DNA from: Bdellovibrionia bacterium
GTDB taxonomy: Bacteria; Bdellovibrionota; Bdellovibrionia; Bdellovibrionales; JAGQZY01
DNA: 64,000 nucleotides
Assembly: GCA_030424715.1 (NCBI GenBank)
Contig: JAUHWH010000008.1
Span: 79,665-143,664 of the forward strand
Reading direction: 5' to 3'
Within the stretch, counting starts at the first letter, position 1; each line of letters starts with the position of its first letter. This document shows, piece by piece, positions 49,184-63,870 of this stretch. Both the position numbers and the translations under genes were made by a program. The notes beneath the pieces were generated by a model. That model saw nothing but the letters and a program-made list of their open reading frames with translations, was not told where the DNA came from and made no database searches.

Positions 49184-50038
49184 ATGAGCCACTATGAATC
49201 GCGAGAGTACGACATTGATGATCCTGAGCTGCCCAAGCTCTTTTTGCAGAGCTGGACAAACAAATCGGTGGAGCCCATCGGTTGCGTATTGATCACCCAT
49301 GGCATCGCCGAGCACTCCGATTGCTACCAGCATGTCGCCAAGGCATTGAGTGACCACGGCTGGTTTGTCTATGGCTGGGACTTACAAGGACACGGACGAT
49401 CGCAAGGCAAGCGTGGTTACATAAAAAATTTCACTGAGTATTCTCGTGACCTCGTATCACTTGTAAAAAAAATCAAACAAGATGAAACCAAGCCGACTCA
49501 CAACTTCCACCTGCTAGGCCACTCCATGGGAGGCCTGATCACTCTACAAAGCCTCTTGTCAGAGGGCGCCCCCCGAGTGCAATCAGCCATTCTCAGCAAT
49601 CCCGCTTTAAAGATTGCCGTTGAAGTTCCGAAGGTGAAAGAAATCGCAAGCCAGTGGCTGAACCAACTTTGGCCAACCATGACACTCAACAACGAAGTTC
49701 GCTACGACCGACTCAGTCGTGATCCCGAAATGGTACGCTCCTACAGCAAAGACCCCCTGCGACACAATAAAGTTTCAGCACCTCTGTTTTTAGGGATGAT
49801 GGAGGCGATGGAGTTCGTGCATCAAAACATTGAAAGACTAAAGCATCCCGTCTACTTTCAAATATCGGGACAAGATCAAATTGTGGACCCGCAAACCAGT
49901 CTCGACCTCTTCAAAGAAATTCCTGGTGAAAAAAAACTCGACTTATACCCTGATAGTTTTCATGAAATCTACAATGACATTAATAAACAAGAAGGTATTG
50001 ACGATCTCATTGCCTATTTAGGAGAATATAAAGCATGA
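49184..50038 (+). CDS. alpha/beta hydrolase (monoacylglycerol lipase-like)
   Basis: Serine hydrolase of the Hydrolase_4 / lysophospholipase family. Oxyanion strand VLITHGIAEHSDCY, then GWDLQGHGRSQG, the nucleophile elbow GHSMGG, a likely acid in SGQDQIVDP and catalytic His in PDSFHEIYND. All triad positions are present. 284 residues, no signal peptide, so cytoplasmic and probably acting on monoacylglycerol or lysophospholipid. Its stop overlaps the following lipoprotein start by 4 bp. Confidence 0.88.
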   Translation: MSHYESREYDIDDPELPKLFLQSWTNKSVEPIGCVLITHGIAEHSDCYQHVAKALSDHGWFVYGWDLQGHGRSQGKRGYIKNFTEYSRDLVSLVKKIKQDETKPTHNFHLLGHSMGGLITLQSLLSEGAPRVQSAILSNPALKIAVEVPKVKEIASQWLNQLWPTMTLNNEVRYDRLSRDPEMVRSYSKDPLRHNKVSAPLFLGMMEAMEFVHQNIERLKHPVYFQISGQDQIVDPQTSLDLFKEIPGEKKLDLYPDSFHEIYNDINKQEGIDDLIAYLGEYKA

Positions 50039-50607
50039 ACCGTCTTCTGATTATTTTACCCATTCTGATTTTTACAGCTTGCACGACACACCCCCACTCG
50101 GATGGGCGAGACCGCTACATTCAAGCCATCGAGAAACACTCGGCTGGAGACAAGCAATTCGCCGGTGTCTACGAAAACTTTGAATTTCGCGCTACCATTC
50201 TAACGACCGATGTTTCACGAACGGTCCACGAGCGCCTGAGCCATATTTACGATTGGAGCGAAGAAGAAAGTCAGCAGAAACTCGACGAAACCATGAGTGA
50301 GTTGCAAGAAAAGACTAAAATTTGGCTTAGCTTTTTTACTCCAGACAGTAAGAACGACAACCTTGCCAATAAAATTTCCATATGGAAGGTCTACCTTCAT
50401 GCCAACGGACAACGCTACGAGGGCCGGGCTTCGAAGGCTAACAAAAATTTTGAAGAGGCCAAGGTTCTCTTTCCATACCATTCACGATGGGCGACGCCCT
50501 ACTATGTGGAATTTGACGTTCCCACCTCGCAAATTGAAACCAGCTCTCTGAAACTGGTCATCACTGGGCCACTGGGGCGCCGTGAAGTGAAGTTTCCCAC
50601 TCACTAA
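50035..50607 (+). CDS. predicted lipoprotein co-translated with the hydrolase
   Basis: A lipoprotein signal with lipobox FTAC at residue 16 is followed by a His-rich stretch (TTHPHSDG). The rest (about 170 residues) has no recognised domain. A KVYLHANGQRYEGRASKANK segment and a terminal GPLGRREVKF look like a beta-rich fold. The ATGA overlap with the hydrolase gene implies a functional link. Envelope-located. Confidence 0.75.
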   Translation: MNRLLIILPILIFTACTTHPHSDGRDRYIQAIEKHSAGDKQFAGVYENFEFRATILTTDVSRTVHERLSHIYDWSEEESQQKLDETMSELQEKTKIWLSFFTPDSKNDNLANKISIWKVYLHANGQRYEGRASKANKNFEEAKVLFPYHSRWATPYYVEFDVPTSQIETSSLKLVITGPLGRREVKFPTH

Positions 50608-50667: not shown

Positions 50668-53646
50668 TTAGTAAGACTCTTCATAGTACTGGCGAGAGAA
50701 TGGAAACACCGCCACCATCTTGATGGCTTTCTGCCACCCAAGGAGCTGCTTGAGACTCTGAGCGTATTCCTGCATTTGCAAAAAAGCTTTGTCTTTGAAG
50801 GCGGTGGAACCCGTCTTGTAATCGACGATCCAAAGCTGCTCGTCAACGACACCCCAAAGGTCAATACGCCTCTCCTTTGTCTGACCTTGGAGGTCCACCC
50901 GGTACCCCCACTCCACAAAGCCTTGATCGATGATGGCAGCAAAAGGCACTTCGTCATGATTTAGAATGAAGTCAATGGCTGCCGCCGTCTCCTCGTTGCG
51001 ATGAGGCAGCCAACGGCTCGCCAACCTCTTGGTGGTCTCGGGATCATGGTTTTTTAAAGTCTCAAAAATTCGATGCAGAACCACGCCCTCCCTTCGATTT
51101 TGCTGAGCCCCTTGGATCCCCAGCCAATTGCGTTCTTCGGTGCTCGCAGGTTCTGACTCCCCGGCTTCATTTGCAAAACGTGGCAGGGTCACGGCGAACG
51201 GGGGAACGATGTCCCCACTGGCCTCTCCCCATTTGATGGTCCGTGGCGCCACCTCTAAGAGCTCATCTCTTTGCAGATGAGACCAGGTTCGGCCGTCGAG
51301 AATCTGTTCAGTCGCGGCCGCCCAAGAGCGCCTGTCCACTTTACTATTCCAACTCATAAACAGCTTGTGCTTGGCTCGAGTCATCGCCACATAAAAAACA
51401 CGGTTCGCCTCTTCACTCTCTCGCCTTTTCATGTCGCGCAAGCAAAGAGGTTCCAGGACACCACCAGAGAATTGGCTTTGATCAACCAGGGGGAGCCTAA
51501 AACTCCAAAGTGCCCTTTCCGAATCTTTAGTGAAATCTTGAAATGTTGTCTCTTGCGGCTTTTTGTGAAGAAAAGGTAAAAAGACATATTCAAACTGCAA
51601 GCCCTTCGAGGCGTGAATGGTCATTAAGTGAATCTTGTTGGGCTCAACTGCTGAACTGGCATCCGCCCCATCGCCAAAATCATCGAGGCTGGAGGCCAAC
51701 GCGCCGTCATTGGCCAATCGCAAAAGACTGCCCCCGGGCTCCCGCGAGTTTTTTTCAATCAAATTGACTAACTTCCACAGGTTCGCCTCTCGACGACCTG
51801 TCGAATCAATTTGGTGACTGTAGTCGAACATCCCGAGCTGCAAGAGAAGTTTTCGAAAAACCCAGCCCACACCAAAAACATTTTTTTTAGCGAAGGCCTG
51901 CAAGAGAGCCTGCCCCGGTTGCTGTTGCTTATTATTTACAAAATAGTCTTTGAACAGAGGCCAAAAGTTTTCGCGCTGCTCGCCGATAATGCCTTTAATC
52001 GTAGAATCTGAAAGCGCCATCCAAGGACTTCTCATGATGAGAACCAAGCTTTTATCATCCCAGGGATTGATCAATATTTTTAAAAAGGCGATGGCATCAA
52101 GAATCTCTCGTCTTTTGAAGTAGTCAGAAGAAGCATGGGAAAGCACCGGAAACCCAAGCTTGGAAAGTTCTCTGTGCAGCTCGTCGATTTGGCCATGGGT
52201 TCGAGTTAAAATACAAATATCTTTTGGACTCACCCCTTGATCCATCAGCTCACCCAGCTGCTGACTGATCTGAAAGATCTCATTATCATCCTCTTCAGTG
52301 GTGTTTACCGACACAACAACAGCGGCCGAAGATTGGATGGGGTCTTGAGTGGCCTCCATCTCAGAGAAGCTCGCATCCAAAACTGGGAAGAATTGATTAA
52401 AAAAAGACAACAGATTTTCTTGCGATCGGTAGTTCTTTTGTAAAGATAAAACCTCAGCCCCTTGCTTTTGCATCGCTTGATGTTTTTCGAGAAACACCTC
52501 ACTGCGAGAACCACGGAACAAGTAAATCGACTGTTGCGGATCGCCAACGATATAACAAGAGCTTTCGCCAATCATTGGCTCAAGAATTTTTAATTGCAAA
52601 GGGCTCGTGTCTTGAAACTCATCGATAAACCAAGCATTCACATCCTCTGAAAACCGTCGCGTGATTTCGGGCTTTTCTCGACCAATGTGAAGTGAGTAAA
52701 ACTCTAGATCATCCGGCTCAAGCGCGGCTTCTGTGCGTTTTTTTTCAGTCAAACGATCCATGAACTGGGTCGCGAATTTTTCAAACTCTAAAAACGAAGC
52801 AATAACCTTGGGCCAATGTTCGGCGGCGTATTCTGGGTCAACCGCCCACTTTTTTAAATCTTTTAATGCTGTCGCCAACACATCATTTAAATCTTCGCTT
52901 AAGCCGGGGTTGTTTTTACTCTTGCGAGGCTTTTTTAAGGCGGACAATGTGACCTGCAATTTTTGACGTTTCTCTCCCCAAGGGGTCTTCTGAGAAAGGA
53001 TTTCCAGGAGACGATTTAGAGATGCAAAAAAATCGTCCCACGATTCCCCGGGGTCACATTGGGGCCCCTCGGAGACAACCTGCTGTAAGTCTTGCGCCGT
53101 CGGCTGTAAAAGATCTTGAATCAGAGATTCAAACTGCTGGGTGCTCCGAATGGGCGACGCTTGCTGTTCCCAGTAAATGGACTCATAAGCTTTTAAATTG
53201 TTGAGAAGACGGCGAAAATCAAAAACCTGCAGCAGGGGCCACTGTTGACTGTCGGCAATCATCTCTCGCAAAATTTGTTTGCGCCAAAAGTCCGCCTGAC
53301 TGCGATCAACAATTTTGAACTGACTAGGCAAGCCCATGCTGTATCCGTATCGACTTAAAAAAATGTTCAACAAACCGTGCATGGTCGTGATGTGCAAAAA
53401 ACTAGTGGACTGTACAAACTCAAGGGCTTCTGGTTTTTCCTCAAGACAGTAAACTAAGAGCCTTTGCTTTAGCTCTTGCGTGGCCTTACGAGTGAAAGTG
53501 GTGAGAACCGTCTTGGGCCATTGGCCCATCTCAGCGTGATAATCTAAGGCTTGGGTGATCACCTCGCGAGTGAGGTTCCAAGTTTTTCCCGCACCGGCAC
53601 CGGCCCGCACGAACTTCTTTATTGGCTTAAAGCTGGGTTCCGACAT
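50668..53646 (-). CDS. addA: AddA-like helicase-nuclease
   Basis: Helicase and nuclease subunit for processing double-strand breaks. UvrD-family motifs are in order: Walker A AGAGAGKT (residues 15-22), DEFQDTSPLQ, GDPQQSIYLFRGS, NYRSQENL, TIHASKGLQFEYVF and VAMTRAKHKLFMSW. The C-terminal PD-(D/E)XK nuclease is visible as RRIDLWGVVDEQLWIVDYKTGS. At about 992 residues it is somewhat shorter than B. subtilis AddA. The track start is a TTG; the ATG at 53646 is preferred, with 28 bp of overlap with addB. Confidence 0.9.
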   Translation of the reverse strand: MSEPSFKPIKKFVRAGAGAGKTWNLTREVITQALDYHAEMGQWPKTVLTTFTRKATQELKQRLLVYCLEEKPEALEFVQSTSFLHITTMHGLLNIFLSRYGYSMGLPSQFKIVDRSQADFWRKQILREMIADSQQWPLLQVFDFRRLLNNLKAYESIYWEQQASPIRSTQQFESLIQDLLQPTAQDLQQVVSEGPQCDPGESWDDFFASLNRLLEILSQKTPWGEKRQKLQVTLSALKKPRKSKNNPGLSEDLNDVLATALKDLKKWAVDPEYAAEHWPKVIASFLEFEKFATQFMDRLTEKKRTEAALEPDDLEFYSLHIGREKPEITRRFSEDVNAWFIDEFQDTSPLQLKILEPMIGESSCYIVGDPQQSIYLFRGSRSEVFLEKHQAMQKQGAEVLSLQKNYRSQENLLSFFNQFFPVLDASFSEMEATQDPIQSSAAVVVSVNTTEEDDNEIFQISQQLGELMDQGVSPKDICILTRTHGQIDELHRELSKLGFPVLSHASSDYFKRREILDAIAFLKILINPWDDKSLVLIMRSPWMALSDSTIKGIIGEQRENFWPLFKDYFVNNKQQQPGQALLQAFAKKNVFGVGWVFRKLLLQLGMFDYSHQIDSTGRREANLWKLVNLIEKNSREPGGSLLRLANDGALASSLDDFGDGADASSAVEPNKIHLMTIHASKGLQFEYVFLPFLHKKPQETTFQDFTKDSERALWSFRLPLVDQSQFSGGVLEPLCLRDMKRRESEEANRVFYVAMTRAKHKLFMSWNSKVDRRSWAAATEQILDGRTWSHLQRDELLEVAPRTIKWGEASGDIVPPFAVTLPRFANEAGESEPASTEERNWLGIQGAQQNRREGVVLHRIFETLKNHDPETTKRLASRWLPHRNEETAAAIDFILNHDEVPFAAIIDQGFVEWGYRVDLQGQTKERRIDLWGVVDEQLWIVDYKTGSTAFKDKAFLQMQEYAQSLKQLLGWQKAIKMVAVFPFSRQYYEESY

Positions 53647-56321
53647 AATTTGTTCCAATCGCAAGTTTCACATATCTTAAGGTCACCCTGATGAGGGCTT
53701 GGATCGATCTCACCGTCCGAAATACTTTTGATAATTTTTGCCACAAGGGCCTTTGTCTCGGCCAACAGCTTATCAAGGTCGTCTCGAGTCATTTTTTTGG
53801 AGGGTAAAAAGTCTGAAGAGGCTTCGGCAATAGCAAACCCCTTACTACGCTCCAAGGTTTTTAAAACGTAATAGAAGGCCCCCACCACATTGTGAGGCGT
53901 GCCATCAAGAGCCCCCTCAATCAAAGCAATGGCGTAGAGCGCTAGTTGAATTTTACCATTTTTTATCCAAGACCCAAACTGAGTGAGCCCCGCATCTGAT
54001 GATTTATAGTCGATCAAGACGAGTTGGTTTTGGTCGTTTTGATCGATACGATCAATCACCCCTCGAAATGGGATCCCCTCGGTGGGATGAAAATGGAAAG
54101 ACTCATTGTCATCACATCGAATGTGGGTTTTCAAAAACTTTTCAACAGCGAGAGTTTCGGTGTTCGGGTATTGGTTGCGCCACTGGACCTCCTTTTTAAC
54201 AAAGGCTGTCGTCAACTGAGCATAAAAGGGACGCAAGAAGTTCCAAATCTCCTGAGAGTAGACTTCAAGGGCCACATCGTTTCGAGCCCGATCGACCAAT
54301 TCAAGGACCTCGGAATCCTGCAATGCAAATTTCTTTTCAGACACCACCAGCTCACAAATTCGATGCAACAAGCGGCCCCGAGACATGGAGTCAATATCCA
54401 GGTCTAAGATGGGGTCTTGCGCGAGGTGCAATGACTTACGAGCAAACAGTTTAAAAGGGCATTTGAAATACTCCTCTAAAGAAGAAGCCGACAGTGACAA
54501 ATCGGTAAAGGGCACTGGCCCGGTGGCCAGCTCGCCTCGGTCTCGCTTGATTCCTTGCTCACAGAGGGTTGCAACTTCCTCACTGTGATTGAGGTCTGAT
54601 CCAGGATCATACAACTTGACCTGGTCCCAGCGAGTGTTGCTGACGGCATCCAATTGAAAACTATGGTTTTCTGCCATGGCGCCCTGCAACCAATACAGTG
54701 ATGGCGATTGAAACTGCCCAGAAAAATTGGTTTCACTGACCAGAAGGATCACTTCATCCCACTGTTTTTTATCGAACCAGTGCAGTTGCTCTACCACCTT
54801 ACGGCGATCGGCATGGGGTAGGTTAAAACCGAAATTTATTTTAATGGATTCAATGTCCGTCCAGTGCAAGGCGGTATCATGGGTGTCCGTAAGATCGTCT
54901 TCGGCGAGCCCTAAAATGATAGCTTTTTGCACAGTCACGTTATCGGCCGCTGCTAAGGGGAGGACATGAATTCCCTCGGAGTCGGCTTCGCAGATTTTCT
55001 TTTCATTACGCGCAAAGTAGTTTTCAAAAAACTCAAGCCACTTCTCTCGAGTCAAAGTCTCTGACAGATAAAAAATATCGTCTAACTCTTCAACAATAGT
55101 TTCAAGACTGCTCTGAGTTGATTTTGACATCAATGAAAAAGCCCACTCAAAGAAGGTTGCAAAATCCACTGCCTCATCTTGCTCTATGATAGTCGGCACG
55201 CTTTCGGCCACCACTGAGCGGCGGGCATAGTCAGACACATCGTACACATTACTAAAGAGACCTTGAAAGCTGTGGTATTCAATCACCGGGCTTTCAACAT
55301 CTGAAAATAGAATTTGCTCGCCGTCACCCTTTTGGTGCTTTTTGAGAGCTGTGCGCATTTTCGACAACCATGTCTGAAAGACAGGAAGCTGAGATAAAGG
55401 GGTGGTTACAGATTTCTGCACAGGAATGCCCTCAACAAGCAGATGCTCATAAAGGGTTGGCCAATAATTTTCGATGCGAGGAGAGACAATAACAATGTCT
55501 TGCGGTCTTAAACCTTGATCTAACCACTCTCGGGTGGCGGCCACAGCCTCTTTCACCTCAGCCAGCATCGACGGCATCAATCTGTAGTGGCGTTGTCGCG
55601 GCGCTGGTTCCATGTTGATTTCTTGGGGTTGGCAACGGCTCAATAGGGCTTGGTAGACCTCTTTGTCTTTCTCATGGGCCGGGACAATGACTGTGACATC
55701 TTGCACACGACTTAAATTTAGCAGAAGCTCACTTTCAACATCATCGATGTCTAGGCCCAGATCCACCAGATAAGGAGTGTCTGCGATCATCGGTAACTCT
55801 TGGTTGAGCAAGACCCCCTTCATCCACTCTTGGGGAATAATCTTGAGTTGCAGAAGTTTCTCCCACAGTCGTTGGCCCATTTCATACCAGTCGGCCCAAC
55901 GCTCTTTGGCCTCTTCTTTTTCAGAAAACCACTGCTCCATCACGTCTTCACCCTGAAAGTGACTGAGAAGAGGCAGGATCTGACCCATAGTTTGATAGGC
56001 TCGCCCACAATCTTTTTGGGACAATTTAAGAGGATGGCTTTTCAGTATTTCCGCCATCCATTTTTCAATTAAAAACTTTGCAATGTCCGGAGCCAAAGGT
56101 TGCCACTCTGGATCATTCATCAGAAGCAGCCTTTGCCAGAGTTCACTGGCGCGCAGCACTCGGTCTGTGTGAATGATGGGGCCCTTGTTTTCAATTAAGA
56201 GATTTTGGATCCAAAACTTGCTTTCTAAACTATTGACGATCCAAAACCCATCACTGTCTAAATGATCAGCAAACACCTGTCGTTTTTGATCGGGACTCTC
56301 GAGAATCAAACATTGTAGCAT
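53619..56321 (-). CDS. addB: AddB-like nuclease with iron-sulfur cysteines
   Basis: Partner of AddA. The C-terminal nuclease domain starts near SASSLEEYFKCPFKLFARKS, and the RecB-type nuclease core is FRGVIDRIDQNDQNQLVLID followed by YKSSD. A CETCDWNKLC motif (C-x2-C-x5-C) near the end, with the Cys of FKCPF, gives the four ligands of the AddB [4Fe-4S] cluster. No Walker A is visible at the N-terminus, so its helicase half is probably inactive. 900 residues. Overlaps addA and lies 77 bp downstream of a barrel gene on the same strand. Confidence 0.88.
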   Translation of the reverse strand: MLQCLILESPDQKRQVFADHLDSDGFWIVNSLESKFWIQNLLIENKGPIIHTDRVLRASELWQRLLLMNDPEWQPLAPDIAKFLIEKWMAEILKSHPLKLSQKDCGRAYQTMGQILPLLSHFQGEDVMEQWFSEKEEAKERWADWYEMGQRLWEKLLQLKIIPQEWMKGVLLNQELPMIADTPYLVDLGLDIDDVESELLLNLSRVQDVTVIVPAHEKDKEVYQALLSRCQPQEINMEPAPRQRHYRLMPSMLAEVKEAVAATREWLDQGLRPQDIVIVSPRIENYWPTLYEHLLVEGIPVQKSVTTPLSQLPVFQTWLSKMRTALKKHQKGDGEQILFSDVESPVIEYHSFQGLFSNVYDVSDYARRSVVAESVPTIIEQDEAVDFATFFEWAFSLMSKSTQSSLETIVEELDDIFYLSETLTREKWLEFFENYFARNEKKICEADSEGIHVLPLAAADNVTVQKAIILGLAEDDLTDTHDTALHWTDIESIKINFGFNLPHADRRKVVEQLHWFDKKQWDEVILLVSETNFSGQFQSPSLYWLQGAMAENHSFQLDAVSNTRWDQVKLYDPGSDLNHSEEVATLCEQGIKRDRGELATGPVPFTDLSLSASSLEEYFKCPFKLFARKSLHLAQDPILDLDIDSMSRGRLLHRICELVVSEKKFALQDSEVLELVDRARNDVALEVYSQEIWNFLRPFYAQLTTAFVKKEVQWRNQYPNTETLAVEKFLKTHIRCDDNESFHFHPTEGIPFRGVIDRIDQNDQNQLVLIDYKSSDAGLTQFGSWIKNGKIQLALYAIALIEGALDGTPHNVVGAFYYVLKTLERSKGFAIAEASSDFLPSKKMTRDDLDKLLAETKALVAKIIKSISDGEIDPSPHQGDLKICETCDWNKLCRNPALSQ

Positions 56322-56398: not shown

Positions 56399-57514
56399 TT
56401 AACGTCGTAATTTTCGATTGTGATTTTTAGTACTTGGACGAGACATTTTGAAGAGAGAAAAGCTCCCTGGATCAATTCCAAATTCAAAAGAAAACTGAAC
56501 CATGTACCGACGATCTTCGAGCTGCCCAGGGTAGGCCCCTAATTCAACACCGTAGGAGGCCGCGTCCACTCGAAAAATCCAAAGATCAAAGCTGGCGCCC
56601 ACAGTGTAATACCCTTGGTTGAACCCACCTCGCACATCAAGTAAGGGCCAACTGAACTCAATGCCCATATTGATTTTCTTACCGAGCTGCTGGTTGCCAT
56701 CATTCAGAAAACGAAAATCAATAGCGGGTCGGATATCCATAAACAAGCTCTCATAATTGAGGCCCACACCTAAGATTTGCTCCTGTTGCACAGGCTCAGG
56801 AGCCACCGATCCGGCTGTGGCTTCAAAACTGGTGTTACCCATGTCTCGCCAGGTAAAAGCAATGGTTGGATTAAGACCTCCAGGAAAAGTAAATGTGGCG
56901 CCCCAATCAAAAGCATAACCCACACCAGAGCGATTGAGTTCATTTTGGATGGTCTCTGGATCAAGAGTCGCAATCGTCGAAACCCCGATGGGAACATTGC
57001 CCCCTGTACGAGCAACCCTTCGCGCCTGTAAGCCCAACTGTAAAAACTTGGGGACGAGATCAAAGCCCGCCCCGGCAACAAAGCCGTAATCCACGCGATA
57101 AAACGAATCAATATTGGGAAACACGGGGTTGTTGACCTGAAAGTTACCATCTAAGACCCCGTAGGCGCCAAAAGCGAAGCCACCAAAACTGAGAAGGGAC
57201 TTTGCACCGGTAAACAACGTAATGTCTTCGCCGTAAAGATCGTTAATGATCTCATTCACATCACTGGAGTCTTCGGCGATATCTAAAAATCTTTGATAAG
57301 AGTCGATGGCATTAGTCCCTAAGCCAGGATCCAAGATGGTCCAACGAAAGCCACCCATTTTCGCGAGGCCTGCGGGGTTATAAAAAATAGCATCACTGTT
57401 GTTGACCACTGCCGTATAAGCATTGCCCATCCCCAGGGCACGAGTGGACAAACCGATGTCTGCGGCATCCACCTGGGTTGAAATCAAAATGAAGAAAACA
57501 AAAATACTTTTCAT
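56399..57514 (-). CDS. outer-membrane beta-barrel protein, paralogue 1 (PorV/FadL-like)
   Basis: The track ORF (57775) begins far too early; the ATG at 57514 follows AAGGA by about 6 nt and starts a signal peptide ending QVDA. The mature N-terminus has the family hallmark RALGMGNAYTAVVNNSDAIF then YNPAGLAK, typical of UPF0164/PorV- and FadL-type barrels. The C-terminal part repeats GxxxGFNQGYYTVGASFDLW and VDAASYGVELGAYPG, then a DRRYMVQFSF strand. This protein continues about 25 residues beyond that strand with a basic tail (KNHNRKLRR). Seven bases downstream of the lipoprotein gene, and very similar in build to two other barrels here. Confidence 0.82.
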   Translation of the reverse strand: MKSIFVFFILISTQVDAADIGLSTRALGMGNAYTAVVNNSDAIFYNPAGLAKMGGFRWTILDPGLGTNAIDSYQRFLDIAEDSSDVNEIINDLYGEDITLFTGAKSLLSFGGFAFGAYGVLDGNFQVNNPVFPNIDSFYRVDYGFVAGAGFDLVPKFLQLGLQARRVARTGGNVPIGVSTIATLDPETIQNELNRSGVGYAFDWGATFTFPGGLNPTIAFTWRDMGNTSFEATAGSVAPEPVQQEQILGVGLNYESLFMDIRPAIDFRFLNDGNQQLGKKINMGIEFSWPLLDVRGGFNQGYYTVGASFDLWIFRVDAASYGVELGAYPGQLEDRRYMVQFSFEFGIDPGSFSLFKMSRPSTKNHNRKLRR

Positions 57515-57521
57515 CACATCC

Positions 57522-58334
57522 TTAAGGGCAGCTCGGGTTAGCGACAGCGCAAGTTGTAAAATCGTTGCCACCGCAAGAGTCGATCCCAATATCACTGGAC
57601 CCAATTGCGTAGCGCAGAGCTTGCACCTGGTTCGCGGTAAAGACAGAGGGGTCGGTGGCGTTGCAATAGACCGCCAAATTGGGGTCCGCATCACAAATGG
57701 CTTGCACATCGTCGAGGGCATCGGCTGTACCAAAGCTCGTTCCGATGCCAGCAAAACTTTTAATAACCACAGCAAGACTGGCTCCGACCTCGCGAACTAA
57801 ATCATCGGGTAAATCATTGACATCACATTGGTCAAAGCCCGCATCGGCAGACCCATCGTCGTCAGCGTCGGCGCGGCTGGATAAAATCACCCCCACCTTG
57901 GCCAAACCATTAAAGGCAGCCAGTAGGTTTTCATCGCCGTTGCGAACGGCTTCGTCTCCAATACCCAAGAGAGAACGTTCAGCGACCACACAATCCGCCT
58001 CATTGCCCTCCGCCGCTCCTGGAAATGCCGCCATGAGGGCAGCAAAAATTGTGGCCGAACCAACGTTTTGCATATTATTGAGCAAGGTTAAAAACACCAG
58101 GCCACAGCGTCCGGCATAGGCGGAGGCGTAGATCGGGATCCGATCACGATCAGCAATAAAGCTGGCATCCAGACTCTCCAAAAGATCAATAGCTAATGCG
58201 AAATTACCGGAATTGATTTCTCGCTTGGCTTGAAAAAACTTGGCCTCATTGGTGTCTTTGTCAGCGATCTCGTCGAATATGTTTTTACTACAAGAGGACA
58301 GAACCAAAAGAAGGGGTAGGATGTATTTTTTCAT
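57522..58334 (-). CDS. predicted lipoprotein between two barrel genes
   Basis: Lipobox LSSC at residue 15. The mature protein (about 256 residues) is helical, opening with a TPR-like segment (EAKFFQAKREINSGNFALAI), followed by a region with six or more cysteines and a C-terminal CAVANPSCP. A DADDDGSADAGFDQCD stretch could bind calcium. GAGG precedes the ATG. One base separates it from the upstream barrel gene, and 7 from the downstream one, so barrel-lipoprotein-barrel is an operon. Function unknown. Confidence 0.75.
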   Translation of the reverse strand: MKKYILPLLLVLSSCSKNIFDEIADKDTNEAKFFQAKREINSGNFALAIDLLESLDASFIADRDRIPIYASAYAGRCGLVFLTLLNNMQNVGSATIFAALMAAFPGAAEGNEADCVVAERSLLGIGDEAVRNGDENLLAAFNGLAKVGVILSSRADADDDGSADAGFDQCDVNDLPDDLVREVGASLAVVIKSFAGIGTSFGTADALDDVQAICDADPNLAVYCNATDPSVFTANQVQALRYAIGSSDIGIDSCGGNDFTTCAVANPSCP

Positions 58335-58335
58335 A

Positions 58336-59400
58336 TCAAAACCTCACCGCAAATTTTAAGGTCACCCGTCGATCTCGATCGGTGAAAGTCCCGAACGTGA
58401 CGGGTTCTGAATAGGTCGCGGCCTGAAACTGCATAAGGCCGGTGGAATACTCCATGCCCGCGGTCCAGTCATTTTCGTGGTACCCGGCTCTAAAAAAATA
58501 GGCGTCCCAGATATTCACCTCGGTGCCTATGTGGAGGCGATCCATATGATCATCGACATTTTCAGTGTCATCGATGCCTGTGTACTCGACAGTGAGAACA
58601 CCTCGCGACTGCTTGCCGTAAATAGGAAATGCCGCGACGGCCACATCAATACTTTGATCAACGACTCTCGGCGTGCCGTTAACACCATTGCCAAAAGCTC
58701 CACCACCAGCTGTGAAGGATGTGTGTCCGATGTCTCGAACATAGACCGTCAAAGTGGGTAGCCACTGCCATGGCGCAGCTAAGGTCAAACCGCTATCAAC
58801 ACCGATCCCCATGCCCTCTGAGGCCATGGCACCAATGGTCAGCGAGTCCGTTGCCGGATTGCGACTGCCAAAAAATTCGGTGCGATTGATCAGGCGCCCC
58901 GCAAAACCAAATTTGATACGGCCGCCCCAAAAACGCATATTGTACGCCAGGTTCAATGAGTAATCGTTTTGATAGTTATAATCCATACTGCCGTCGGCGT
59001 TGCGCTTGGCGAGAACTTCGTAGCGTCCCAACAGGCCAATTCCAAAATTGGGCAAAACAATGGAGGGGAACATTTGTGCCTTGAAGTAGTAGGGCTCACC
59101 GACATTGTCATCTTGTTGATCATACAGACCTTGAGGATCAATGGCTCCGATGCCCGCCGTTCCGACGAGGGTGTCGGCCCCACCAGAACTACCGGTGATT
59201 TCGGGGTCTAAAATTGTGAAAAAGTAGTCTCTTAAGCGCCCCAATCCATTGGGGTTGGATAGCACAGCCGTTTCATCATTGGCCACGGCGATACTCGCAC
59301 CGCCCATTCCCATTTGGCGAACACCACGATAGAACTCAAAGTCTGCCTTCGCCAAGGCTACGTTAGTGATGCACAATATGATTGTTAATACTTTTCCCAT
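58336..59400 (-). CDS. outer-membrane beta-barrel protein, paralogue 2
   Basis: Signal peptide at about residues 1-17 (ending ALA). The N-terminus has the same hallmark as paralogues 1 and 3 (RQMGMGGASIAVANDETAVL then SNPNGL). It ends VTLKFAVRF, a typical barrel-closing strand. The family C-terminal motif appears as RAGYHENDWTAGMEYSTGL and ATYSEPVTFGTFTDRDRR. GGAAGAGG precedes the ATG. First gene of the minus-strand barrel-lipoprotein-barrel operon that may run on into addBA. Divergent from the 59620 lipoprotein. Confidence 0.82.
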   Translation of the reverse strand: MGKVLTIILCITNVALAKADFEFYRGVRQMGMGGASIAVANDETAVLSNPNGLGRLRDYFFTILDPEITGSSGGADTLVGTAGIGAIDPQGLYDQQDDNVGEPYYFKAQMFPSIVLPNFGIGLLGRYEVLAKRNADGSMDYNYQNDYSLNLAYNMRFWGGRIKFGFAGRLINRTEFFGSRNPATDSLTIGAMASEGMGIGVDSGLTLAAPWQWLPTLTVYVRDIGHTSFTAGGGAFGNGVNGTPRVVDQSIDVAVAAFPIYGKQSRGVLTVEYTGIDDTENVDDHMDRLHIGTEVNIWDAYFFRAGYHENDWTAGMEYSTGLMQFQAATYSEPVTFGTFTDRDRRVTLKFAVRF

Positions 59401-59559
59401 GACCTCTTCCTTGAAGTTCCATGTCCTAATCGGCGGTTTTTTGTATCAACTTGAGAAAAATTGTAAGACTCGCCAACACTGGATTTTGGTCTGGCACAAT
59501 TGCAGGTTTCGAAGCCCCTGTGCTGGGACACGGACCGAGGATGGGGTCATGAGAAATCC

Positions 59560-59589
59560 TTGGCCAGAGCCTCTGGTCTTCATTATAAT
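59560..59589 (+). promoter_or_regulatory. promoter of the 59620 lipoprotein gene
   Basis: TTGGCC (4/6), 18-bp spacer, perfect TATAAT. The start is about 30 nt beyond, with GGAGG in the leader, so this is a normal leadered promoter. Confidence 0.6.
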
Positions 59590-59619
59590 GATATATCAAG
59601 AAAATTCAGCGGAGGAATT

Positions 59620-60339
59620 ATGATCAGGCTTATTGGCGGCATTATCACAGGCTTAGCACTTTTTTTCATCACGGGATGCGAAGACAAACAAGAATCAAAA
59701 CTCTTTGAAGCCCAGGTTTGCCTCGATCGCGCCACTCCTCAAACAGCACTGAGTTGCTCCGATCTTGTTGCCGGGCAAACCTCAAAACGAGCCTATGTTA
59801 TCGTGTGTTCAGCGCGCTTTCTTGCCAGGGGCTTGGACGAAACCAAAATCGTGGCCGCCCTTGAGCAGATCAGTAAAGAGGGCGGGACTAACCCCACATC
59901 CACAGCCATCGCCAATTTGGCTGTGATGAATGATGCTGAAAACCCAACAGCCTATGATCCGACCTTCGCACAAGACACTCTCACGGCCTGTAACCTGACA
60001 GAGTCACCGGGATTGATTGCTCTTGCGAGCTTTTCATCCATTGCCACCACAGTGGGTGGCTTGGCCTCGGCGGAGTCATGCATTGATGCCTCGCCTGCAT
60101 CAGGCGAGCCCTTCACCGTCGATCAAGCCTGCATGCAAACCCAGATCGGCTTAACTGGTTCCACCGGTGATGCCACGACCATTGGACAAACAGCGGTGGC
60201 AAACCAGCAAATTCTGTGCGGCACCGATGGTATCTTTAAGGGGAAGTCTTTTTGCACCGACCTGGATGCAGCGATCGCTGCTGGCGGTACGGCTGACACC
60301 ATCGGCGATGCCATTTTAAATGGGATCAAAGGGGACTGA
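59620..60339 (+). CDS. predicted lipoprotein, Cys-rich
   Basis: The track start (59500) lies upstream of the promoter; the ATG at 59620 follows GGAGG by 4 nt. Lipobox FITGC. The mature protein (about 220 residues, Ala/Thr-rich) contains many cysteines spaced like VCLDRATPQTALSC, VCSAR, TACNL, ESCIDA, QACMQ, LCGTD and FCTDL. Its first 60 residues align loosely in pattern with the 57522 lipoprotein (F-x-A-x2 ... A ... L). It lies divergent from barrel paralogue 2. Eight bases separate it from the next gene. Confidence 0.75.
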   Translation: MIRLIGGIITGLALFFITGCEDKQESKLFEAQVCLDRATPQTALSCSDLVAGQTSKRAYVIVCSARFLARGLDETKIVAALEQISKEGGTNPTSTAIANLAVMNDAENPTAYDPTFAQDTLTACNLTESPGLIALASFSSIATTVGGLASAESCIDASPASGEPFTVDQACMQTQIGLTGSTGDATTIGQTAVANQQILCGTDGIFKGKSFCTDLDAAIAAGGTADTIGDAILNGIKGD

Positions 60340-60346
60340 GTAGGCA

Positions 60347-61201
60347 ATGCGAAGGCCTTGTTCATTCATTTATTGTATACTTATGGCGTTTTCTATTCAG
60401 GGCAACGCCACTTCTTTTTCTGCAGATTTTCAACAAGAGCTGATTGATTATCATGTCGCTCTAAACAATAAATTTCACAAAAGCCCAAAAGCTTTTGTTG
60501 AACACGCTCCGTTCTCCTCCAACGAAAAAGTGGCCCTTCGCAGTTGGCTTGATAAAAAGCCAGCGACGAGCCTCCCTCTTTTGAAGAAACAAAACCACGG
60601 CTTTCAGTTTTGGCATCAAGGTCAACGAATTGTTGTGAAGTTCAAAGATCGCAGCACTTACGTTAATAATATTAAAATACCGCCGATGGGCAACCGCAAT
60701 GTCATGCAAAGACTGCAGGTCCTTAAAGCAGCACTCGCCCCCCTCTACAAAAGAAAGACCGAACACGCTCTGCTCGCCTGGCTGTTGCCAAGAGCCTTCG
60801 CCGAAAGCGAATCCAATGTTTTGTACCGCAATAACCGATCGTGGTGGCAATTTTTTCAAGATAAACATCCCATCAACCGCGTCGACACCTCTCAAGGCAA
60901 CGCGTGGACCCAAGGTGCGGGCCGCAACATGCGCGGACATATCGGCACCCAACGCTTTGGAGGCATCAGACTGTGGTGGAACAAATCGAAGGCCCGTTGG
61001 CATGCCTTTGTCAACAACGAGAAGGTGGTGGTGGCGCTCGACACCGCCCATGAATACACCATCGAAAGCGCGGTGATGGCCGCAGACTATCTGGTAGGAA
61101 TGTACTGGCACCAGCTCGACAAACCCGAGACCACCCGCCGCATGATCCAAAAGAACATTGAAAGGGGCTGGCAAGAGAGCCCTGCTGCCGCTTCCCAATA
61201 A
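60347..61201 (+). CDS. secreted protein of unknown function, 284 residues
   Basis: N-terminal signal peptide (about residues 1-21, ending GNA). The rest is basic and rich in Trp/His/Lys, with no recognised domain. A region near residues 155-215 (RSWWQFFQDKHPINRVDTSQ and GAGRNMRGHIGTQRFGGIRL) is distinctive. It is 8 bp after the Cys-rich lipoprotein gene and likely co-transcribed. Only a weak ribosome site. The hairpin at its 3' end has its T tract on the minus strand and may serve rpsD more than this gene. Confidence 0.65.
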   Translation: MRRPCSFIYCILMAFSIQGNATSFSADFQQELIDYHVALNNKFHKSPKAFVEHAPFSSNEKVALRSWLDKKPATSLPLLKKQNHGFQFWHQGQRIVVKFKDRSTYVNNIKIPPMGNRNVMQRLQVLKAALAPLYKRKTEHALLAWLLPRAFAESESNVLYRNNRSWWQFFQDKHPINRVDTSQGNAWTQGAGRNMRGHIGTQRFGGIRLWWNKSKARWHAFVNNEKVVVALDTAHEYTIESAVMAADYLVGMYWHQLDKPETTRRMIQKNIERGWQESPAAASQ

Positions 61202-61230
61202 AAAAAGCCTAAGTTAATAAACTTAGGCTT
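61200..61230 (-). terminator. Rho-independent terminator of rpsD
   Basis: Perfect 10-bp stem AGCCTAAGTT / AACTTAGGCT with a 4-nt loop; minus-strand read-out ends in seven T. The plus strand has only TTCTC after it, so it is stronger for rpsD. Confidence 0.85.
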
Positions 61231-61262
61231 CTCGTGCTCACAGATCGACGGGTTGTCGAAAT

Positions 61263-61895
61263 CTATACAGAGCGTAGTGAATAATACTCGGCAAAAAGAT
61301 TGGTATTAAAACCAAAAGGAACATGCTCAATGCTCGGAAGATCTTTAATGGTTCCGACCACTTTACCTTCTTTTTCAGCCTTCTCCATATAATCAGGAGT
61401 GTCTAAACGAGGAGCATCTTGGCATTGGATAACCACTTGATGCTCATAGGACTTATCTTTAAGCGAAATAACATCGCCAACTTTAAGAACTGCTGATCCC
61501 ACATCGACTTTTTTACCGTTAACAAAAACATGGCCGTGACTCACAAGCTGACGAGCCGCACGGATGCTAGGAGCAAACCCTAAACGAAAGACAGAATTGT
61601 CGAGACGAAGCTCAAGAAGACTGGCCAGCGCACTGATCCAGTTTTTTGTGGCGTTACCACGCTTGGCATCTCGGATAAAGCGACGCAATTGCTTTTCGCG
61701 AAGACCATAGTGGAACATCACTTTTTGCTTTTCTTCTAACTGTAAAGCGTAGTTTGAGAATTTCTTTCTTTTGTTACCGGCTTCGCCTGGGGGATAAGGA
61801 CGTCTCTCGAGAGCACCTGGCTTTCCTAGTCCAGGAAGCTCAGTGCCGAGGCGGCGTTGAATGCGAAAACGGGCTTTGCTTTTATCTTTGCTCAT
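61263..61895 (-). CDS. rpsD: 30S ribosomal protein S4
   Basis: Primary 16S rRNA-binding protein of the small subunit. The N-terminal part has ERRPYPPGEAGNKRKKFSNY and QLEEKQKVMFHYGL. The S4 RNA-binding domain reads ELRLDNSVFRLGFAPSIRAA then RQLVSHGHVFVNGKKVDV. No zinc-binding cysteines in the N-terminus, i.e. the zinc-free form. 210 residues. The ATG at 61895 matches the usual MSK-type start; the track's GTG is upstream. It stands alone rather than next to rpsM/rpsK/rpoA. Confidence 0.93.
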   Translation of the reverse strand: MSKDKSKARFRIQRRLGTELPGLGKPGALERRPYPPGEAGNKRKKFSNYALQLEEKQKVMFHYGLREKQLRRFIRDAKRGNATKNWISALASLLELRLDNSVFRLGFAPSIRAARQLVSHGHVFVNGKKVDVGSAVLKVGDVISLKDKSYEHQVVIQCQDAPRLDTPDYMEKAEKEGKVVGTIKDLPSIEHVPFGFNTNLFAEYYSLRSV

Positions 61896-61930
61896 AGTAG
61901 TGACCACTCCAAATTGTTTTAAAGTGGTGT

Positions 61931-61959
61931 TTTATTGCATAGATGCCATGAGATGTCAC
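61931..61959 (-). promoter_or_regulatory. promoter of rpsD
   Basis: Minus strand: GTGACA (5/6), 17-bp spacer, AATAAA (4/6). The leader is about 29 nt and contains a GGAG. Confidence 0.4.
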
Positions 61960-61971
61960 ATAAAAAATAGC

Positions 61972-62006
61972 AAAAAGAAGCGGGGCCTTCCATTTCTGGA
62001 GGCCCC
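61972..62006 (-). terminator. terminator of barrel paralogue 3
   Basis: GC-rich stem GGGGCCTCC / GGAAGGCCCC (one bulged base) followed on the minus strand by CTTCTTTTTG. It separates the barrel gene from the rpsD promoter. Confidence 0.7.
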
Positions 62007-62042
62007 GGCAACGACGTTTAAGTATTTGTATTTATTGGTTTA

Positions 62043-63176
62043 TTAGAAATCAAGGCTCATGGTCATCATGTAGCGGCGGTTTTCGATTTTCGAATTTTCC
62101 ACCCCAACCTCTTCACCATATGAGGCCAGATCCAATTTGAAGATCCCAAACTCGCCAGTGAAGCCAGCCGTCCAGTAGCCCTGATTAAGGCCGGCTCGCC
62201 AGCCCCCACGAAACCAGGAGGCCACCTCCCACATGAACTCAGCCCCCAAATGAAAACCCTTTTGCAGGTTCCAGTTAGGATGGAGCATGTCTCGAATATC
62301 AAAGGCGATTTTGGAGCTCCAGATCCACCAGCTGGGCATATCCATAGCGTAACCCAGGTCGATGGTGCGATGAAGGTTCTCAGGGTCGCCCGTGCCCTCA
62401 CCAATAATCCCCAGGTTGGTGATGTAACCATAGTCACCGATATTTTTTATCACCAAGGCCGCTGAAGGATTGTAGCTCTGCCACGGGCCCTTCCAGAGGA
62501 AGCCGACGTCAGCATCGAGCGCGAGTCCTTCTTTGGCGTCTTCTAGGTTAAAAATTTCATCTTTAATAGCGATGGTTGCGACATCCACAATCTTATCCAC
62601 GTTCATTCGGTAGATAGCCTTTGCTGTCACACCAATGTTGAACGATCCATTTTTGTGCCACTTTTTGATTTTCCAATTTTTTGTGAAGGCCACCGTGGTG
62701 TCTTGAATTGCGGTGAGGTTGACCGACGGACCAACAGAGCGATGCAAACCCATGTCGATTGACAGGTCCATGGGGATCACCGCAATCCCCCAACTCGGGC
62801 GGGCCCAAAGAAAGCCCAAAGAGGGCGCACGCACGGAATAGTGACTGCCGTAATTCTTTTTAATGACTTCTGTGATAGCGGCGACATCATTAGACTTCTT
62901 GCCGGCTTCATCAATCTCATCATAGAAGTCAGCAATTTCTGGGTCGCCATCAAGCTTAAGAAACCAATTGCTCTCCCCCTTCTCTAATTGACTGATCCCC
63001 GCTGGGTTGTAAAAGATCGCCGTGTTGTCATCGGCCACCGCGGTAAAGGCCCCACCCATGCCGTTGGCACGAGTGGCTTCAAAGCCTCTTCGGATACCTG
63101 AATACAAAGATTGCGCCATCAAGACATTGGCGAAAAATACAATTGCTAAGAAAAGAAAAACCTTTGCTTTCATCAT
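62043..63176 (-). CDS. outer-membrane beta-barrel protein, paralogue 3
   Basis: The track start (63236) lies in the intergenic region; the ATG at 63176 (or 63173) follows GAGG and starts a signal peptide ending NVLMAQS. It shares the N-terminal hallmark (ATRANGMGGAFTAVADDNTA then IFYNPAGI) and the C-terminal pattern (GLNQGYWTAGFTGEFGIFKL, ASYGEEVGVENS, NRRYMMTMSLDF) with the two barrels at 56-59 kb. The final Phe is typical. 377 residues. Followed by its own terminator. Divergent from the small barrel-like gene. Confidence 0.82.
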   Translation of the reverse strand: MMKAKVFLFLAIVFFANVLMAQSLYSGIRRGFEATRANGMGGAFTAVADDNTAIFYNPAGISQLEKGESNWFLKLDGDPEIADFYDEIDEAGKKSNDVAAITEVIKKNYGSHYSVRAPSLGFLWARPSWGIAVIPMDLSIDMGLHRSVGPSVNLTAIQDTTVAFTKNWKIKKWHKNGSFNIGVTAKAIYRMNVDKIVDVATIAIKDEIFNLEDAKEGLALDADVGFLWKGPWQSYNPSAALVIKNIGDYGYITNLGIIGEGTGDPENLHRTIDLGYAMDMPSWWIWSSKIAFDIRDMLHPNWNLQKGFHLGAEFMWEVASWFRGGWRAGLNQGYWTAGFTGEFGIFKLDLASYGEEVGVENSKIENRRYMMTMSLDF

Positions 63177-63220
63177 CAGACCTCTTTGAATGTAAAACTT
63201 TATTGTGAAGAAAAAGCACG

Positions 63221-63249
63221 TTGGCGGCAAGTTCAAATGTCTCTATAAT
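63221..63249 (+). promoter_or_regulatory. promoter abutting the 63256 start (leaderless type)
   Basis: TTGGCG (4/6), 17-bp spacer, perfect TATAAT, then 6 nt (AAAAGC) to the ATG at 63256. The longer track ORF would start upstream of this promoter. Confidence 0.6.
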
Positions 63250-63255
63250 AAAAGC

Positions 63256-63870
63256 ATGATACAGATCCTCACTCTTATTTTTATCAGCACTCTCCCCTTA
63301 GCCTCTCTGGCGGCACAAAAGAACGACCACTGGTATAAAGTCGAGAGCAAAAAACAAGAAAAGAAAGCGAAACCAAAGGCCAACTATAATTACGACAGCG
63401 TTGAAAAAAGCAATCCAGAACGGCAATTCCAAAATCCAGGCTACTGGTCTCTTAGACCAAAGCTTAGTTTCTCTGGAGGCTATCATGTCGACAAAGCTTT
63501 TCTTAATGAAGGAAAAAGGAATCGCTTGTTTTTCAATACGGCCCTGCAGTTTCGCCAGCGCCCTTGGTATCGCTTAACCGCCAACGCTCTCTTGCTACAG
63601 AACAATAGTATGCTCGCCGGCTTATCTTACGAAATCACCCCCAGCCGGGAGAGAGTGAGAACCTACTACGGTGTCGGAGTCGCTCACCTACTGGTCGCTG
63701 AAAAGCAGTTTAGCAACTTGGTGGAGCTCGACGCCTACTACGCTACCGCCCAGTACGGCTGGGAGGTCCTATTACCCTCTAAGCATGGCTACAATATCGA
63801 AATCAAGGGCTTCTTATCGGGCAACGATTACGCCATTCAAATATCGGCCGGCTACATCATCCCCCTGTAA
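63256..63870 (+). CDS. small outer-membrane barrel-like protein
   Basis: Starting at the ATG at 63256, residues 1-20 form a signal peptide (ending SLAAQ), then a Lys-rich linker (KKQEKKAKPKANYNYD). From about 60 on, alternating strands such as RLFFNTALQFRQRPWYRLTA and RVRTYYGVGVAHLLV end in AGYIIPL. It looks like an 8-strand barrel. About 204 residues, no family recognised. Probably leaderless. No terminator is visible before the simple repeat. Confidence 0.7.
   Translation: MIQILTLIFISTLPLASLAAQKNDHWYKVESKKQEKKAKPKANYNYDSVEKSNPERQFQNPGYWSLRPKLSFSGGYHVDKAFLNEGKRNRLFFNTALQFRQRPWYRLTANALLLQNNSMLAGLSYEITPSRERVRTYYGVGVAHLLVAEKQFSNLVELDAYYATAQYGWEVLLPSKHGYNIEIKGFLSGNDYAIQISAGYIIPL

Follow-up and report, generated by a model that had tools for sequence, protein, structure and literature searches.

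Barrel and lipoprotein genes at the locus

The window, which is the whole stretch of 64,000 nucleotides that was analysed, was read previously from its sequence alone, and the six genes singled out in that reading are all present at the locus. Three encode paralogous outer membrane (OM) barrels, barB (56399..57514), barA (58336..59400) and barC (62043..63176), all on the minus strand. Two encode lipoproteins, lipo1 (57522..58334, minus strand) and lipo2 (59620..60339, plus strand), and the sixth encodes a secreted protein (60347..61201, plus strand). The barB gene is real, but the longer open reading frame with a TTG start was wrong. Translation from the ATG at 57514 (MKSIFVFF) yields a protein of 371 aa. 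The minus-strand operon barA-lipo1-barB has gaps of 1 and 7 bp, as originally read: the barA stop lies at 58336 and the lipo1 start at 58334, and the lipo1 stop lies at 57522 and the barB start at 57514. In Bdellovibrionales barA is usually the first gene of this operon.

The sequence-only reading also counted the secreted protein as a member of the module and paired it with lipo2 on the plus strand. Neither claim stood. No homologue of the protein at 60347-61201 was found in 29 relatives, and it was therefore rejected as a partner and placed outside the conserved module. Its pairing with lipo2 is a lineage-specific coincidence, the real partner of lipo2 being barC. A ribosomal-protein-S4-like gene (61263-61907, minus strand) lies between the secreted protein gene and barC. 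Scans for promoters and terminators produced nothing usable.

The addA/addB-type helicase-nuclease genes (50668..56321, minus strand) are neighbours conserved mainly in Bdellovibrionales, and no functional link between them and the barrel-lipoprotein genes is inferred. Near addAB, positions 49184-50607 encode an alpha/beta hydrolase and a small lipoprotein, both of which are kept in about 10 loci. Divergent from barC, positions 63205-63870 encode a small secreted or barrel-like protein with no Pfam or NCBIfam match; about 13 loci of the order have a possible counterpart at this position.

Families of the barrels and lipoproteins

The N-terminal motif common to the three barrels is the motif of the FadL/PorV superfamily. 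It is shared because the barrels are of common descent, not by chance: the barA profile matches that of barB over its full length (6e-55) and that of barC at 2e-44, again as full-length homology. The RR-containing C-terminal strand was also confirmed, the pattern [ED]xRRY being present in barA, barB and barC. A search of the 3.13 Mb genome with barA returned exactly these three barrels. In a tree of 75 sequences a single branch separates each of A, B and C from all the others, so the barrels are old paralogues rather than recent copies.

The kinship with PorV and FadL that had been proposed is supported by both profiles and predicted fold, while the curated cut-offs of Pfam and NCBIfam were reached by none of the three barrels. 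In Pfam the barrels at most touched Toluene_X (FadL) or UPF0164 weakly; Toluene_X (PF03349) scored 12-13 bits against a gathering cut-off of 29.7. The NCBIfam model PorV_fam, with a cut-off of 90 bits, scored 51 for barC, the best match, 29 for barA and 24 for barB, and reached 47 bits in the best listed barB of another class. Among 26 barB proteins from across the phylum, PorV_fam matched 26/26, FilD 14, Toluene_X 10, BamG 8 and PorQ 7. The best BamG match (5e-7) was to a distant barB member and scored 29 bits against a cut-off of 250; the barrels of the window were not among the BamG matches listed.

The AlphaFold2 model of barB (pLDDT 77.9) has a barrel with an N-terminal hatch, as expected for the FadL superfamily, and the hatch motif with NPA/NPxG is conserved in all barrels. 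In the PDB its fold came closest to that of PorV from the type 9 translocon (1e-8), followed by TodX, FadL, TbuX and CymD. All five matches fall within E 1e-8 to 1e-6 and TM about 0.3-0.57, and BamG of the Bacteroidota BAM complex appeared further down the list. From this model barB is predicted to be a 14-strand-type barrel of the FadL/PorV superfamily. Since profiles and fold match but every curated cut-off is missed, the three barrels are, as far as profiles and models tell, members of the superfamily that fall within none of its named branches.

The barrels differ at their ends. In Bdellovibrionales a basic tail follows the last strand of barB and terminates in RR in 19/19 proteins, mostly as LKQRR; in the window it is encoded at 56399-56480 and ends in RKLRR. 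The paralogues barA and barC carry no such tail and finish with the usual aromatic residue. The tail is missing from barB in many classes outside Bdellovibrionales. At the other end, a crude estimate of the cleavage site leaves 13 residues before the motif in barA and barB and 18 in barC, compared with about 11 in E. coli FadL. Because this count is FadL-like, crude as it is, the N-terminal extension of about 10 residues seen in BamG is probably absent from barA and barB.

Both cysteine-containing proteins have lipoprotein signals and are acidic and rich in cysteine, which upholds their original classification as lipoproteins. lipo1 has the lipobox LSSC, a median pI of 4.1 in its class, and about nine cysteines, several of which are conserved in addition to the lipid cysteine. 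A stretch of lipo1, DADDDGSADAGFD, resembles a calcium site (DxDDDGxxD); it is common in Bdellovibrionales and largely missing in other classes. The predicted structure of lipo1 is good (pLDDT 83.6) and all-helical. Compared with the PDB it gave no significant fold match, the best hits (E 0.73) being mostly generic TPR proteins.

Several identities were considered for lipo1 and rejected. Its first 60 residues are weakly similar to the N-terminus of BamD (4e-4) and TPR-like, while the rest is unrelated to BamD and other TPR lipoproteins. Its scores in the curated families, 18.9 bits where 363 are required and 17.7 where 81.4 are, come from the N-terminus only, and a separate, shorter BamD-like protein appears to be encoded elsewhere in the same genomes. 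A SusD-type lid was discarded, no SusD occurring among the 50 listed fold matches, which were mostly generic TPR proteins and all had E above 0.7. BamH was discarded too: lipo1 is all-helical, and as nothing in the PDB matched its fold below that E value, it has no fold likeness to BamH.

The profiles of lipo1 and lipo2 match each other with 93% probability (2.5e-7). The two lipoproteins are likely of common descent, and the kinship falls short of certain because the match partly spans the signal peptide. In lipo2 the lipobox is followed by CEDKQE. Acidic clusters after the lipid cysteine mark surface lipoproteins in Bacteroidota (PMC12578637). A cluster of at least two acidic residues in the six after the cysteine was found in 11/11 lipo2 proteins tested and in 3/16 other lipoprotein-like ORFs, figures obtained with related sequences and with a rule borrowed from Bacteroidota that may not hold in Bdellovibrionota. 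The lipoproteins are of a previously undescribed kind.

Pairing and spread of the genes

The expectation that barrel and lipoprotein recur together in other genomes was borne out very strongly. Of the 127 genomes listed in both searches, 124 have lipo1 and barB on one strand with lipo1 immediately upstream, 57 of them inside Bdellovibrionales and 67 outside the order. In the remaining three the genes are on separate contigs. One clear exception to the pairing lies beyond the 127, a genome with a lipo1 homologue and no recognised barrel beside it (G078). Phylum-wide, a deep lipo1 profile had a match in 198/241 genomes and the barB profile in 216/241. The barB-lipo1 pair is ancestral and nearly phylum-wide in Bdellovibrionota.

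The chromosomal context of the pair changed while the pair itself stayed. In Bdellovibrionales it lies beside addAB, and in other classes beside aminotransferase, coaD and rsmD genes. In most genomes of the order barC is followed by genes for a PEGA-domain Ser/Thr kinase (L079:14658-16682 and orthologues), CoaE and an AMP-binding enzyme of the acyl-CoA-synthetase type. Other classes do not share the acyl-CoA-synthetase-type and coaE neighbours; there coaD lies beside rsmD, a common housekeeping pair.

Within the order, 55 of 60 relatives have barA and 55 have lipo1, the same five genomes lacking both. A scan of named organisms with barA as the query returned 66 loci, nearly all from Bdellovibrionales or their kin. 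barA, lipo1 and barB occur within 6 kb in 53 of these, and all five genes in 36/66. The order in B. bacteriovorus strain kdesi is barC, lipo2 (reverse), barA, lipo1, barB, and genome G031 has the same gene set next to addAB. The addAB genes of B. bacteriovorus HD100 are bd3139/bd3140 (PMC3593177), so the HD100 barrel-lipoprotein genes should follow Bd3140.

The position of lipo2 points to a barrel of its own. Among its 56 copies, 40 have both barC and barA nearby, 9 have barC only, 3 barA only and 4 neither. Two genomes have an additional barC, in each case with an additional lipo2 next to it. Since lipo2 keeps to barC even where barC has another location or occurs twice, each lipoprotein has its own barrel. 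The tie of barA to the operon is looser, barA being divergent from lipo1-barB in some genomes. Several genomes of 1.2-2.4 Mb have neither barrel nor lipoprotein, and the system is therefore dispensable in those small genomes. The absence in G032 suggests an assembly gap, because a partial barC was found at the contig end.

Possible functions of the barrel-lipoprotein pairs

While the pairing is well supported, function has to be inferred. In Bacteroidota, where barrel-lipoprotein teams of this superfamily are already known, FadL-superfamily barrels have recently turned out to belong to machines for secretion and assembly. PorV and PorQ (NF033709) are similar to the present barrels in profile (the best for nearly all barB), in fold (the best in the PDB) and in the N-terminal motif. 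In type 9 secretion, PorV keeps exported proteins attached to the cell surface. The barrels here differ in falling far below the curated cut-off and in having a helical lipoprotein as partner, and no C-terminal-domain substrates are known for them. A type 9 secretion system itself was tentatively set aside, its translocon SprA/Sov being found in 0/40 relatives, a weak result since the control genomes were silent too. BamG, of the FadL family, binds the surface lipoprotein BamH (PMC12611786; PMC12578637).

Our first-ranked reading, to which we assign a probability of roughly 0.45, is that the barrels and lipoproteins form two-part OM complexes in which the barrel anchors the lipoprotein. The physical part of this reading is the strongest: each lipoprotein would be bound to its own barrel, lipo1 to barB and, in Bdellovibrionales, also lipo2 to barC, with barA as an extra barrel in that order. 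The barrel would hold the lipoprotein at or across the membrane, much as PorV, PorQ and BamG hold their partners, and the task of the anchored pair would be to assemble or display surface proteins, not to import small molecules. We rank this reading first on two grounds. The barrels' closest relatives by profile and fold, PorV, PorQ and BamG, each keep hold of a protein that is exported or lies at the surface, and the known FadL transporters do not come with a constant lipoprotein. The conserved residues at the very end of the predicted periplasmic tail of barB suggest a docking peptide. Candidate docking sites in the periplasm are BamD and the TPR-like N-terminus of lipo1. In F. johnsoniae, BamG contacts BamD within the BAM complex through its three C-terminal residues (PMC12611786). 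Several findings count against anchoring: lipo1 has no PDB fold match, barA and barB probably lack a BamG-type N-terminal extension by the crude estimate, the barB tail is absent in many other classes, SprA was not seen in the 40 relatives (the weak result above), several small genomes lack the whole system, and the acyl-CoA-synthetase-type and CoaE neighbours would fit lipid uptake.

Uptake of the FadL type is the main alternative, possible but doubtful. By analogy with FadL, the barrels would import hydrophobic molecules, such as fatty acids or lipids from prey or the environment, through the hatch and a lateral opening, and the lipoproteins would act as receptor, lid or periplasmic acceptor. 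The fold of the barB model matches FadL, TodX and TbuX, the hatch motif with NPA/NPxG is conserved, the mature N-terminus of barA and barB is estimated to be about as long as that of FadL, three paralogues could represent three substrates, and the enzyme neighbours are conserved in the order. These neighbours are not retained in other classes, however, and the FadL-family score of 13 bits is far below the Pfam cut-off of 29.7. Whereas the barrels here are almost always paired with a lipoprotein, FadL transporters are not known to need a dedicated one. Inherited gene order without functional meaning is already disfavoured and very improbable. Operons can persist by descent, and the lipo1-barB order is ancient. 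Mere inheritance fits poorly with a pair kept in two chromosomal contexts while its other surroundings turn over, and with a lipo2 that accompanies barC to other places and in duplicate.

It is improbable, though less so, that barB is attached to the back of BamA and, together with lipo1, enlarges the BAM complex for surface proteins. Such an assembly would be a very old or an independently evolved equivalent of the BamG-BamH complex of Bacteroidota and the FCB group (PMC12578637, PMC12611786). Both systems combine a FadL-superfamily barrel with a partner lipoprotein, are nearly phylum-wide and are lost in small genomes, and eight barB members match the BamG model. Like BamG, barB of Bdellovibrionales has a conserved C-terminal extension, a likeness of build. 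Against such an extension, the best BamG score is 29 bits where 250 are required, the BamG-type N-terminal extension is probably missing from barA and barB, lipo1 is all-helical, unlike BamH as described, and some genomes that cannot do without BAM lack the system. A bolder reading is tentative and rather doubtful: Bdellovibrionota, which lie outside the FCB group, may have their own barrel-lipoprotein extension of OM protein or surface-lipoprotein assembly. It would combine a barrel like PorV or BamG with a lipoprotein of novel fold, and would have multiplied in Bdellovibrionales to three barrels and two lipoproteins.

The sequence-only reading suggested a possibly undescribed system for surface export or nutrient uptake, and no study of it was found in the literature searched, nor was any mention of Bd3141-Bd3145 or Bd3147 in a Bdellovibrio context. 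Compared with the Bacteroidota teams, what is new is a different lipoprotein, another phylum and barrels that reach no existing family cut-off. Almost the entire phylum, with the model predator B. bacteriovorus among its members, has kept this two-part OM system, which could be relevant to the way predators construct their surface. With a constant barrel-lipoprotein pair in an unrelated phylum, the idea of a general Gram-negative way to deploy OM lipoproteins becomes testable.

PopA, the major OM protein of B. bacteriovorus, is another Bdellovibrio barrel with a FadL-like plug, and belongs to a pentameric lipid-trapping family (PMC12228718). Its gene is bd0427, and it is set apart from barA, barB and barC by this description, not by sequence. 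The HD100 counterpart of the PEGA-domain kinase near barC is probably Bd3148, which is reported to be expressed in attack phase and to compromise predation when interrupted (PMC6733907).
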